64,000 nt of DNA. Origin: Candidatus Methylomirabilota bacterium. GTDB taxonomy: Bacteria > Methylomirabilota > Methylomirabilia > Rokubacteriales > CSP1-6. Below the pieces are notes generated by a model, which saw only the letters and a program-made list of their open reading frames with translations, had not been told where the DNA came from and made no database searches. Location of the stretch: contig DASTFB010000071.1 in NCBI GenBank assembly GCA_035709005.1, forward strand, positions 62,001 through 126,000, read 5' to 3'. The position numbers and the translations under genes were made by a program. Below are positions 14,997 to 19,440 of the stretch, in pieces. Within the stretch, counting starts at the first letter, position 1. Each line of letters begins with the position of its first letter.

Positions 14997-15910
14997 CTCC
15001 GCTCGAGGGCCCGGAGCTCGTCGACGAGGCTCCGGGCGCCGGCGTCCCGGGCGAGGTGCTCGGCCCAGGCCGCCTCGGGCACGCCCAGGATCTCGCGGAT
15101 GGCCGCGATGGCCTCGGCCGGCTTGGGAGCCTTGCCGTGCCACTCGGGGTTGTTCTCCATGAACGACACGCCCTTGCCTTTGACGGTGTGGGCCACGATG
15201 AAGCAGGGCTTGTCGCGAGTAGCCTCGGCCTGGTCGAGGGCCCTGTCGATCTCGGCCATCTTGTGCCCGTCGATCTCCAGCACCGGCCAGCCGAAGGCCT
15301 GCCACTTCGCGGCCAGCGGCTCCAGGTCTAGGATCCTGGCCACGAAATCGTCGAGCTGGATCTTGTTGTAGTCCACGATGACGGTCAGGTTCTCGAGGCC
15401 GAACTCCGGCTGACCGAGCTGCGGCGCGGCCAGGGCGGCCTCCCACACCTGGCCTTCCTGGATCTCGCCGTCGCCCAGGATGCAGTACACGCGTGCCGAC
15501 GACCGGGCCAGGCGCAACCCCAGCGCCATGCCGACGGCGATGGAGAGTCCCTGGCCCAGCGAGCCGGTCGCCGCCTCGATGCCCGGTAAAAGCGTGCGGT
15601 CGGGATGACCCTGCAGCGGGCTCCCCAGCTTGCGTAGCGTCACCAGGCGCTCCTCGGGAAAATAGCCTGCCCGCGCCATCGCCGCGTAGAGCGCGGGTAC
15701 GGCGTGCCCCTTGGACAGCACCAGGCGATCGCGATCGGCCCAGGTCGGGCGGTGGGGATCGTGGCGCATGCGCGCGAACAGCAGAATGGTGATGAGATCG
15801 ATCACCGACAACGAGCCCCCGGGGTGCCCGGAGCCCGCGTGCGTCAGCATGCGGATGATCTGGACCCGGCAGTCGCGGGCGATCGTCTCCAGGCGGGCGA
15901 TATCGGCCAT
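14993..15910 (-). CDS. Transketolase, N-terminal TPP-binding subunit (split form)
   Basis: 305 aa. The family start THAGSGHPGGSLS and the thiamine-diphosphate motif GDGEIQEGQVWEA ... NLTVIVDYNKIQ are present, together with SKGHAVPALYA and EAATGSLGQGLS. ATG 15910 overlaps the stop of the PmbA-like gene (ATGA), and the stop overlaps the next subunit (GTGA). The pair is therefore made stoichiometrically from one mRNA. Confidence 0.9.
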   Translation of the reverse strand: MADIARLETIARDCRVQIIRMLTHAGSGHPGGSLSVIDLITILLFARMRHDPHRPTWADRDRLVLSKGHAVPALYAAMARAGYFPEERLVTLRKLGSPLQGHPDRTLLPGIEAATGSLGQGLSIAVGMALGLRLARSSARVYCILGDGEIQEGQVWEAALAAPQLGQPEFGLENLTVIVDYNKIQLDDFVARILDLEPLAAKWQAFGWPVLEIDGHKMAEIDRALDQAEATRDKPCFIVAHTVKGKGVSFMENNPEWHGKAPKPAEAIAAIREILGVPEAAWAEHLARDAGARSLVDELRALERR

Positions 15911-17469
15911 CAGGTCAGCTCCTCCATGAAGCCCGCGATCTCCTCGACCCGGACACCACGCACGGCCACTTCGGGCGCGTAGACGACCTCGTCGGCGGCC
16001 CACACGATCGTCCCCTTCACGTCCTTGGTGATGCCGACGATGTTGTTCAGCACGTTCGCGATGTTGTCGTTGATCCGCACGGTGTTGGGCCGGAGCGGCG
16101 CCTCGATGCGGCCGTCGCGGATGATATACGAATCGCCCACGACGGTGCAGGTGAAATCGCCGGCCGACAGCCCGTTGATCGGGTAGGTGTACCAGATGCG
16201 ACCGATGTACAGCCCGTCGTTCACGTGCTGGAGCAAGTCGGCCGAGCTCATCGGCTCGCTGCCCTCGAGGATCACGTTCGAGGCGGCGATGGACGGCTGG
16301 CTGTCGAACTGACGGCCCCCGCCGTCCCCGAATCGGAAGCCGTTGCGGGGCACCAGCGCCGCCTCGGCCGGCGCGCCGCTGGCGCCCAGTTTTGACGCCA
16401 GGCCGGCATCGCGGAGAAGCCGCCGGGTCTCGTACCAGTTGGACAGACACCCGACGAGGAGGCCGTCACGGATCAGGTCGGTGCGGCCGGTCGGCAGACC
16501 TTCGCAGGTGATCCCTTTGGAGCCCATGAGCCCGGGCCGGGCCCCGTCGTCGTAGATCGTGAGCGACGGCGAGGCGACCCGGCGGCCCAGCTTGCCCAGA
16601 AACGGCGTGCTAGAGGAATAGAACGCGCTCGCGCTGCAGGCCGGGACGACGAGGTTGTTCAGAAGATCCGTGACCGGCTGGCGGCCGAGGATCATCGTGT
16701 ACGTCCCGGAGCGGACGCGATGGCCGCCCACCGCGGCGGTGGCGTTCTGGGCGGCTTCCACCCCCGCTTCGTCGGTGAAGTGATCGAGCCGCGTCCCCGT
16801 GGACCAGCCCGACCCCTTGGCCTGCCGGGCCTCCACCATCCCGGTCACGAACGCGGTGAGGAGCGTCGACTCGTCGGTCTGCGTCTCGGGCATCGCGGTG
16901 GAGGCGATGGCCATGCGTTCCTGCAGGATCGTCACATCGCCTCCCAGGATCAGGCCGAGCGCTCGCAGTCCCGCTTCGCTGGTGGCCAGGTCGGCCAGGC
17001 GCGAGGAGGCGAGAAACGTCCTGAGCGCGCCGTGGATGACGCTCCAGCCGGCCTCGACCAGCCGCGCGTCGTCCAGGCCCATGAGGCGCGGGTCGTGATA
17101 GTCGCGGAGGCTGCGTCTCTCCGGGCGCGGCCGTGGCAGCGAGACGAACTCGGGATCGCGGATGGCGGCGGCGCGAGCCTTCGCGAAGGCCCGCTCTACG
17201 CCGCGCTGCGAGAGGTCGGCCGGCTCGGCACCGAACCCCAGCCACGGGCCGTCCGGCCCATCGAAGACCACCTGCAGGCCCAGGCCCCACGCCTGCGAGG
17301 ACTTGGGCTCCTCCACGCCGTTGCAGGGGATATGGGAGGTGTAGCAGAGACGCGTGAGGAGCGCGGTGTTGGCAGCCGCGAACGCCTCGACCTCGCGGAC
17401 GCCTGGCTGGGCGTGCGCGAATGCCAGCGCGGCGCCGACGGCTCGGGCGAGGTCACTGGTCTCGATCAC
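15910..17469 (-). CDS. TldD/PmbA family protein, PmbA-like partner
   Basis: 519 aa from GTG 17469. The fold-level landmarks of the TldD/PmbA (TldE) family are present: GLGLQVVFDG, GSKGITCEGLPTG, SNVILEGSEPMSSADLLQHV and GDFTCTVVGDSYIIRDG. No HExxxH is seen, so this is the non-zinc partner expected to pair with the TldD two genes upstream. TldD/E heterodimers are cytosolic zinc proteases that open peptide substrates such as microcin leaders or antitoxins. At about 520 aa it is longer than E. coli PmbA (about 450). Its GTG overlaps the stop of the extended rhodanese frame by 4 bases. Confidence 0.8.
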   Translation of the reverse strand: MIETSDLARAVGAALAFAHAQPGVREVEAFAAANTALLTRLCYTSHIPCNGVEEPKSSQAWGLGLQVVFDGPDGPWLGFGAEPADLSQRGVERAFAKARAAAIRDPEFVSLPRPRPERRSLRDYHDPRLMGLDDARLVEAGWSVIHGALRTFLASSRLADLATSEAGLRALGLILGGDVTILQERMAIASTAMPETQTDESTLLTAFVTGMVEARQAKGSGWSTGTRLDHFTDEAGVEAAQNATAAVGGHRVRSGTYTMILGRQPVTDLLNNLVVPACSASAFYSSSTPFLGKLGRRVASPSLTIYDDGARPGLMGSKGITCEGLPTGRTDLIRDGLLVGCLSNWYETRRLLRDAGLASKLGASGAPAEAALVPRNGFRFGDGGGRQFDSQPSIAASNVILEGSEPMSSADLLQHVNDGLYIGRIWYTYPINGLSAGDFTCTVVGDSYIIRDGRIEAPLRPNTVRINDNIANVLNNIVGITKDVKGTIVWAADEVVYAPEVAVRGVRVEEIAGFMEELT

Positions 17470-17870
17470 CGCCGCTGACCTTCGGTCGGGTAACCCTTCT
17501 GGGCCCAGCCCGGCAAGCCTTCGTCGAGAACCTTGTGGTTGCGCCAGCCGCGCGCATACACGATGTCGCTGGCCCCCCGGGCCAGCGCGTGGGGGCAGGT
17601 TCAATAGAAGACGACCAGCTGAGTCCGGGGGACCTCGCGGAGCCGCCCGGGCAGGGCGCGCAGCGGAATCGAGCGCGCGCCCTTGATGTGCAGCTGCTCA
17701 TACTCGGGCGGCGTGCGCACGTCGACGATGGTCACGGCGGTGCCGCCGTCCACCAGCCGCTTCAACGCGTCCACCCCGATGAAGGCCACCGGGTAGTTGG
17801 GTGGGGCCGCCGGCGCGGCGGAGCCCAGGAGCAGGACGGCTATGACCACGAACGTCAGTAGGGCCCGCAC
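17466..17870 (-). CDS. Exported rhodanese-like protein, probable selenoprotein (Sec at codon 90, TGA 17603-17601)
   Basis: 134 residues if TGA is read as selenocysteine. A signal peptide (MRALLTFVVIAVLLLG start, AAPAAPP cleavage region) leads to a single rhodanese domain: VTIVDVRTPPEYEQLHIKGA, then LVVFY-U-TCPHALA, then ARGWRNHKVLDEGLPGW and GYP. In the family the residue after V-[VL]-[FY]-Y is the catalytic cysteine that carries the persulfide; here that codon is TGA. The frame continues 44 codons with the expected C-terminal rhodanese sequence and ends at TGA 17468-17466, overlapping the next start GTG 17469 exactly as other junctions of this operon do. A hairpin follows the TGA at SECIS distance. 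The alternative is a simple nonsense mutation, but the downstream reading frame is undamaged. Confidence 0.78.
17567..17587 (-). promoter_or_regulatory. Candidate bacterial SECIS hairpin in the rhodanese mRNA
   Basis: Reading the minus strand after the TGA, bases 14-22 (CGCTGGCCC) pair perfectly with bases 26-34 (GGGCCAGCG) around a GGG loop. The loop begins 23 bases after the UGA. Known bacterial SECIS elements lie directly downstream of UGA, with the apical loop about 16-37 bases away and a G among the first loop bases, so distance and loop fit. The element also codes for part of the protein (residues 95-101). Confidence 0.65.
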
Positions 17871-17871
17871 C

Positions 17872-19440
17872 TCAGCCCCCGACGACGCGGGCCCGGCTGC
17901 GGATCGTGGGCCCGCCGTTGCCGAGCTTCTTGGTCTGCATCGGCTGGCCCTTGCCGCAATTGGGGATCGGATAGAGCAGGAAGTCCGAGCCCACCGCGTC
18001 CACGTTCATGAGGTAATCGCGGGTGTCGGCGGCGATGCCGCCATCGCGGTAGAGCCGGCCGAGCTGGCCGTTGCGGATCTCGTAGACCGTGCGGGCCGAG
18101 ATCCGGAAATTCTCCCGACTCTCCGCGATCGAGGGCGTGCGGTGCCCGGCCAGGTAGAACCCCCGGTCCACTTCGGCCACGATGTCTCGGGGATCGCGGT
18201 CGCCGCCGGCGAAGACCGTGTTCGACATACGGACGAGGGGCACCAGGGCGGCGTCGGTGGCCTTGTAGTGACCGTTGGGCGCCCCTCCGAAGACCGCCGC
18301 CGTCTGCCGGCTGTTCATGAAGCCCGTGAAAATGCCGCGATCGATGTGCACGACGCGGCGGGCCGGCGTCCCCTCGTGATCGTAGCGGTAGTGACCGTAG
18401 CCGGGCAGTCCGGGATCGGAATACGCGGTCACCAGCGGTGAGGCCACCGGCTTGCCGAGCTGGTGCTCGTCCAGACTGCGCAGCAGCCAGGAGCGGCCGG
18501 CGTAGGCCGTCTCCATCTTGAGGGCCCGATCGAGCTCGACCGGGTGCCCGACGATCTCGTGGGAGACCAGGGTGTTGTAGTGAGGATCCGTGACGACGAC
18601 CACCTCACGATCGGAGGTCGGCAGGACCGGCGCCTCGGCCAGCGCCGCGGCCTCGCGGGCCAGAGCCAGCACGAAGTCGCGGAGCGGCGGAAAGCGCATC
18701 ATCGGCTCACCCACCCCGCCGGCCACGATCTCCCAGCCGCGCTGGTGCCCCATCACGTCGTAGAGGTCCTGGTTGACCGTACCGCTGCCGGCCACTACGG
18801 CGCACCCGCCTTGCGTCAGCGCGAACGCTTGATCGATCAGGGCGCCTTCCGTCGAGGCGAACAGCTCGCGGGAGAGCTGCGTGAGCACGCCCACGTAATT
18901 GTGGTGGATGCGGGCGTCGAGGGCCGCGACCTCCCGCGATAGCTCGGTGGCGAGGCGGACCATGTCGGCCAGGGGGACCGTTCGGGGGTCGACCTGATAG
19001 ACCGCGGGCACGGTGTCCACGCACACGTCGGTCGCATGCAGCCGCGTGTTGGCCAGCGCCTCACCGAGGGCGCCGAACTTGCCCCGGGCATCCGCCTTCA
19101 TCTCGGCGTTGAGGGTGGCGCGGCGCCAGGCCTGGCGAATCGCCTCGCGAATGATCTGGTCCAGGCGAGGCAGATCGCTGGCGCCCAGGCTCAGGCCGAC
19201 GTAGCCGGCGGCGACCGCGCGGTCGCCGGCGAGGACGCGGACCCCCAGGGACAGCGCGTAGTCGTCGCCGGAGAAGCGGCTGGCCCCGTTCTCGGCGGCC
19301 GCCCCCTTGGCCTCCACGGCTTCCAGGCGCAGGTCGGCGTACGTGAGATGGGGAAGGCGACCGGCGGTGTCGCGGAGGACGTCACGGATCATCGGCTTGA
19401 GGCCCTCGATGACCTCGACCGAGACGCGCGTCACCGTCAC
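17872..19440 (-). CDS. tldD: TldD family zinc metalloprotease subunit
   Basis: 522 aa from GTG 19440, overlapping the moeA stop (GTGA). The zinc motif is HEIVGH (HExxxH), preceded by DPHYNTLVS. The conserved TldD landmarks GYGHYRYDHEGTPARR, GIFTGFMNSRQTA, NGHYKATD and PIPNCGKGQPMQ follow. With the PmbA-like protein encoded two genes downstream it should form the TldD/E heterodimer. The rhodanese gene sits between the two, which is unusual. The substrate is unknown and no precursor-peptide gene is obvious nearby. Confidence 0.87.
   Translation of the reverse strand: MTVTRVSVEVIEGLKPMIRDVLRDTAGRLPHLTYADLRLEAVEAKGAAAENGASRFSGDDYALSLGVRVLAGDRAVAAGYVGLSLGASDLPRLDQIIREAIRQAWRRATLNAEMKADARGKFGALGEALANTRLHATDVCVDTVPAVYQVDPRTVPLADMVRLATELSREVAALDARIHHNYVGVLTQLSRELFASTEGALIDQAFALTQGGCAVVAGSGTVNQDLYDVMGHQRGWEIVAGGVGEPMMRFPPLRDFVLALAREAAALAEAPVLPTSDREVVVVTDPHYNTLVSHEIVGHPVELDRALKMETAYAGRSWLLRSLDEHQLGKPVASPLVTAYSDPGLPGYGHYRYDHEGTPARRVVHIDRGIFTGFMNSRQTAAVFGGAPNGHYKATDAALVPLVRMSNTVFAGGDRDPRDIVAEVDRGFYLAGHRTPSIAESRENFRISARTVYEIRNGQLGRLYRDGGIAADTRDYLMNVDAVGSDFLLYPIPNCGKGQPMQTKKLGNGGPTIRSRARVVGG

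Follow-up and report, generated by a model that had tools for sequence, protein, structure and literature searches.

A Likely Exported Rhodanese of Methylomirabilota with a Very Probable UGA-Encoded Selenocysteine at Its Active Site

Introduction

The window analysed here, a stretch of 64,000 nucleotides from a Candidatus Methylomirabilota bacterium, contains on its minus strand a rhodanese reading frame that is interrupted by a TGA triplet in the position of the catalytic cysteine. The question raised by this locus is whether the triplet is a defect, a stop codon, or a codon for selenocysteine (Sec), and, in the last case, what the resulting protein would do. In bacteria, SelB-GTP and Sec-tRNA(Sec,UCA) bind a hairpin, and UGA is decoded as Sec. 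A preliminary description of the locus had proposed such a replacement of Cys by Sec, and the present analysis upholds it: the TGA is conserved, the hairpin is constrained, and the sel machinery is found in the genome. From these comparisons we conclude that the gene, denoted RhodU, very probably encodes a selenoprotein in which a UGA-encoded Sec is the catalytic residue. Standard annotation would split or truncate RhodU, which is therefore probably missing from the predicted proteomes of Rokubacteria.

Results and Discussion

The Gene and the Predicted Protein

The RhodU gene (UxC form) extends over 17466..17870 on the minus strand, as defined by translation with TGA read as Sec (U), the Pfam Rhodanese domain (PF00581), and the orthologues. 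It starts with GTG at 17870 and stops with the TGA at 17468-17466, which gives 134 residues with the predicted Sec at position 90. A single internal TGA is present in the frame (17601..17603, minus strand), exactly where the preliminary description had placed it, and is followed by 44 sense codons. With this triplet taken as Sec, the protein reads ...LVVFY-U-TCPHALARGASDIVYARGWRNHKVLDEGLPGWAQKGYPTEGQRR, the local motif being FY-U-T-C-P-H, and the same column holds TGA throughout the family and Cys in distant relatives. Cys92 (TGC codon at 17595..17597, minus strand), two residues past Sec, is invariant in the aligned orthologues and is proposed here as the resolving thiol. The N-terminal segment (17796..17870, minus strand) is a probable signal peptide, consisting of a hydrophobic stretch followed by AAPAAPP. 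A hydrophobic N-terminus with an AxA-like site is conserved in kind in the orthologue alignment, and export of RhodU appears likely.

The Rhodanese domain is recognized at residues 34-124 with 56.8 bits (gathering threshold 22.2, E 3.3e-15). In the AlphaFold2 model of the protein (pLDDT 86.6), residues 90-94 form the loop between the strand 85-89 and the helix 95-106, so residue 90 is predicted to sit in the rhodanese catalytic loop, directly past the strand. This residue aligns with the 'yC' of the solved rhodaneses 6mxv and 3tp9, and structural comparison of the model ranks rhodanese domains highest, among them those of Alr3790, YgaP, persulfide dioxygenase fusions, and EanB. Beyond the TGA, the orthologue alignment contains the invariant residues C92, R98, G118, and W122.

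Conservation of the TGA

A six-frame search (E < 1e-34) of 95 genomes of the phylum, all of the genomes compared being MAGs or drafts, located the RhodU gene in 39, the window's own included. Each copy has exactly one in-frame TGA, and in 39 of 39 it falls in the same column, within the motif (F/L)YU(T/A/S/G)CPHAL as read from the loci. It is this constancy that weighs most against a chance coincidence of TGA and hairpin. The orthologues in the 38 other genomes are 49-66% identical to the protein of the window. The carriers belong to a group named Candidatus Rokubacteria/Rokuibacteriota by the GTDB contig scan, which also places UxC relatives with TGA beyond the phylum, one (L176) in a Proteobacteria MAG and the other (L178) in a Deltaproteobacteria MAG.

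The preliminary description had suggested looking for Cys in the TGA column of homologues. Cys is indeed present there, both in a Melainabacteria MAG (L179), whose orthologue reads YCSCPHH, and in more distant relatives within the phylum (L061-L066), which are of the CxC type. On the aligned sequences, such an exchange of Cys and Sec in one column is what a true selenoprotein would be expected to show.

Selenocysteine Machinery

The genes for Sec insertion, whose presence in the source genome the preliminary description had left to be checked, were all found: selA, selB, selD, and tRNA-Sec (anticodon UCA) each score above the family cut-off. At E ≤ 1e-60, selB is detected in 84 of the 95 genomes and in 35 of the 39 RhodU carriers. 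Among the carriers, G055 has split selB and selA genes, G087 has a selB-like fragment alone at a contig end, and a clear selA, selB, or tRNA-Sec was not found in G060 and G077. In the source genome (G000) itself, selA ends one contig (C64) and selB starts another (C94), and loss of the sel cluster in assembly is therefore plausible; a missing contig would most simply account for the genes unseen in G060, G077, and G087.

The selD gene of the source genome (G000:C87:189561-190505; L047, L143) has an in-frame TGA of its own at the active site, with the motif AGUASK, and the selenophosphate synthetase SelD is probably itself a selenoprotein.

The Probable SECIS Hairpin

The candidate bSECIS hairpin lies at 17567..17587 on the minus strand and is assigned by its minimum free energy (MFE), its spacing, and its conservation. 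It consists of a 9-bp stem, CGCUGGCCC/GGGCCAGCG, closed by a GGG loop at 17578-17576. Counted from the TGA, the element CGCTGGCCC-GGG-GGGCCAGCG spans +14 to +34, the loop being +23..+25; the perfect stem, the loop, and both distances agree with those given in the preliminary description. The MFE over 45 nt is -22.0 kcal/mol and the spacing between TGA and loop is 22 nt. Published constraints on bSECIS elements are a loop of 3-9 nt with G in the first two positions, a stem of 4-16 bp, a spacing of 16-37 nt, and an MFE of at most -7.5 kcal/mol (PMC13188914), and the hairpin of the window (GGG, 9 bp, 22 nt, -22.0 kcal/mol) lies within all four; in the diverged orthologues L058 and L059 the stem is just 4 bp. 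The two strands of the window contain 1397 TGA triplets, of which only six precede a perfect Watson-Crick stem of at least 9 bp in bacterial SECIS geometry. When the candidates with a frame open on both sides and a stem of at least 6 bp are inspected by eye, only the RhodU TGA has a recognized domain on both flanks. A search of the region against Rfam returned no credible RNA family.

The constraint on the nucleotide sequence is seen in the 38 non-identical orthologues, in which the ratio of observed to background synonymous entropy is 0.19 for codons +5..+11 and 0.71-0.98 for the other blocks of the gene. The low-entropy block coincides with the hairpin, and the suppression is confined to the hairpin codons. 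All 40 Sec sequences have G as the first base of the loop (G23), the loops being GGG, GUG, or GUC, and the Cys orthologue L179 is without the hairpin. The pair 22-26 changes in a compensatory manner from C-G to A-U in L176 and L178, with two amino acids altered alongside; this is the one pair with a double change, so the covariation is thin.

The folding energies were compared with those of synonymous shuffles and were not lower in most orthologues (mean z of -0.55 over all). We attribute this to a U.C mismatch at 19-29 (Ser codon TCC), which is present in half of the sequences. Stability of the hairpin alone is therefore not taken as proof; the mismatch and the energy result weaken the argument from stability and leave the argument from constraint unaffected. 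An independent check comes from the CxU rhodaneses of the phylum, which are of a known type and whose UGA is two codons further along the protein than that of RhodU: a hairpin with a comparable pentaloop, in most cases CGGGT or CGTGT, occurs 21 nt past their own UGA. On this comparison, the hairpin tracks the UGA rather than the protein sequence.

Operon Neighbourhood

The operon in the window comprises moeA, tldD, RhodU, tldE, and a split transketolase. The upstream partner of RhodU is the gene for a tldD-like metallopeptidase subunit (17872..19440, minus strand; PF19289 with E 6.1e-36, and PF19290), and a tldE/pmbA-like subunit gene (15910..17469, minus strand; PF19289 with E 1.1e-37) follows it. 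The GTG start of tldE at 17469 overlaps the rhodanese stop, which confirms the terminal GTGA overlap reported earlier; if translation ended at 17601, a gap of 131 bases to tldE would result. The more general statement that the junctions of the operon overlap holds for rhodanese/tldE and fails for the upstream side, where one base separates the tldD stop from the rhodanese start.

Most of the 20 genomes sampled share the gene order moeA-tldD-rhodanese-tldE-transketolase. In 19 of the 20, tldD adjoins the rhodanese gene, and in most the offset of the tldE start relative to the rhodanese stop is between -4 and +7 nt. Genomes without RhodU have tldD directly followed by tldE, with nothing between. 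Conversely, G074 and one contig of G089 keep the rhodanese but have no tldD and no more than a remnant of tldE, these being MAG contigs that may be misbinned. In view of these two kinds of arrangement, a strict dependence of RhodU on TldDE is not favoured. Since the G074 and G089 contigs retain the rhodanese without tldD, the functions of RhodU and TldDE are probably linked but separable. A literature link between tldD and rhodanese was also sought, and the two words were found together in just two papers, with a single mention each.

Some variants of the locus are worth recording. At L095 (G074:C259), other genes, including by eye a patatin-like phospholipase frame, replace tldD, and the Sec-rhodanese is kept beside the transketolase genes. 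At L131 (G072:C1) and L133 (G082:C187), what by eye is an enoyl-CoA hydratase-like gene lies directly after tldD, in the usual slot of the Sec-rhodanese; at L133 it is followed by the N-terminal part of a rhodanese relative, cut by the contig end.

We have also considered that the Sec codon could act as a selenium-dependent valve, in which termination at UGA under low selenium would leave tldE under-translated and thereby tie TldD/TldE assembly to the selenium supply and to the rhodanese. The idea comes from the start of tldE at the rhodanese stop in most genomes, and we regard it as improbable.

Alternative Readings of the TGA and Proposed Chemistry

The evidence above bears on other readings of the triplet. 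That the TGA disables a pseudogene, or is a TGC or TGT miscalled in sequencing or assembly, might be suspected from a locus known from a single MAG assembly with a triplet one base away from the Cys codons. The recurrence of the TGA in 39 genomes, at the protein identities given above, makes such an origin extremely unlikely, as do the conservation of both flanks and the lack of a Cys version among the close orthologues; we consider it ruled out by the conservation of the TGA. The TGA could instead be a regulated true stop, with an 89-residue main product and a read-through that is either incidental or places a residue other than Sec, in keeping with the fact that termination always competes with UGA recoding. 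Such a truncated product would be without the active-site loop, whereas the 44 codons past the TGA are conserved as rhodanese and contain the four invariant residues. Taken together with the RNA constraint, a hairpin geometry that fits bSECIS, and the Sec machinery in the genome, this makes a true stop very unlikely.

Selenocysteine is thus the preferred reading, and the following sequence of events can be proposed for RhodU. SelB-GTP with Sec-tRNA(Sec,UCA) would bind the hairpin 22 nt downstream, the UGA would be read as Sec, and the protein would be exported by means of its N-terminal signal sequence. In the most economical mechanism, the selenolate of Sec90 in the active-site loop would then attack a sulfane-sulfur donor (thiosulfate, polysulfide, or a persulfide) and take up its sulfur, Cys92 would resolve the selenenyl-sulfide with formation of an Se-S bond, and a thioredoxin-like partner would re-reduce this bond. 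RhodU would accordingly be a periplasmic sulfane-sulfur transferase or reductase. We infer the role, the signal peptide, and the partner, periplasmic sulfane-sulfur transfer being the probable role; for the sulfur chemistry as such, our confidence is about evenly balanced. It is conceivable, and we take it as a serious possibility short of an even chance, that RhodU is a selenoprotein of a different kind, namely a thiol-disulfide or peroxide-type oxidoreductase in which Sec-x-Cys serves as a redox pair and the rhodanese fold as its scaffold. The invariant UxC pair and the clan of CxC relatives do resemble a redox pair, and the majority of selenoproteins without an assigned role are considered redox enzymes (PMC13188914), but the rhodanese domain is retained and, in the model, so is the active-site geometry.

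Comparison with Known Rhodaneses and Rhodanese Selenoproteins

As noted above, the fold predicted for RhodU is that of the rhodaneses. YgaP, PspE, and Alr3790 are Cys members of this group. They (PDB 5hbl, 2jtq, and 3ilm, respectively) share with RhodU the fold and, by alignment, the position of the catalytic loop, while the RhodU family differs from them in having Sec together with the invariant Cys two residues later.

The rhodanese selenoproteins in the table of a 2026 review have the forms UxxS, UxxG, CxU, UxxG, and UxxxxU; a UxC rhodanese is absent from that table, in which the only UxC entries are a thioredoxin-like protein and a transporter (PMC13188914). In forms 1, 2, and 4 of the table (PMC13188914), Sec leads the active-site motif and apparently replaces the catalytic Cys, as in RhodU, but their listed motifs, UxxS or UxxG, set them apart from UxC. 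Form 3 (CxU; rhodanese_LYCAU, NF041203) has, like RhodU, the rhodanese fold and a Cys/Sec pair two residues apart, and the CxU homologues of the phylum have the hairpin geometry of RhodU, 21 nt past the UGA. However, Sec is second in the pair in NF041203 and first in RhodU; the second position of Cys-x-Sec is the NF041203 trait, all RhodU orthologues are Sec-x-Cys, and the model rejects RhodU, whose 42.6 bits fall short of the cut-off of 115. TsoB (NF045694, UxxxxU, resembling a rhodanese/DsbD fusion) also has a rhodanese domain with Sec, but its fusion model has 572 positions and two Sec, and RhodU reaches 22.6 bits against a cut-off of 805.

In a tree of 69 rows, a branch with support 74/79 has the UxC sequences on one side, away from the clan of CxU and UxU. 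Because of this separation, Sec has probably arisen independently at each position of the pair, although the short proteins limit the resolution.

The UxU rhodaneses were met in genomes of a sister class of Methylomirabilota (G016, G018, G011, G012, G013, G010, and G014). These proteins (L067, L068, L069, L071, L073, L074, and L075) have two in-frame TGAs two codons apart (Y-U-T-U-P) and thus double Sec, with a perfect hairpin 21-22 nt past the second UGA in four of the seven; the 2026 review table has no UxU rhodanese (PMC13188914). The window's own genome has two further rhodanese selenoprotein genes, both of the CxU type (L078/L142 on G000:C14 and L079/L141 on G000:C49), one of which is by eye fused to a DedA-like membrane domain and the other located beside thioredoxin-/chaperone-like genes.

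A 2026 study by Deng et al. (Cell Rep) reportedly predicts selenoproteins of Methylomirabilota. Judged by the 2026 review table, we conclude that RhodU represents a new subfamily within a known class, the rhodanese selenoproteins; that study may already list this subfamily. The record reported selenoproteome in Methylomirabilota is 63 genes in one MAG (PMC13188914). RhodU adds a well-supported, putatively exported UxC subfamily from an uncultured soil and subsurface lineage. Together, the CxC, CxU, UxU, and UxC relatives constitute a natural series with Sec at either or both thiols of one pair, and it is therefore directly testable which thiol gains from selenium.
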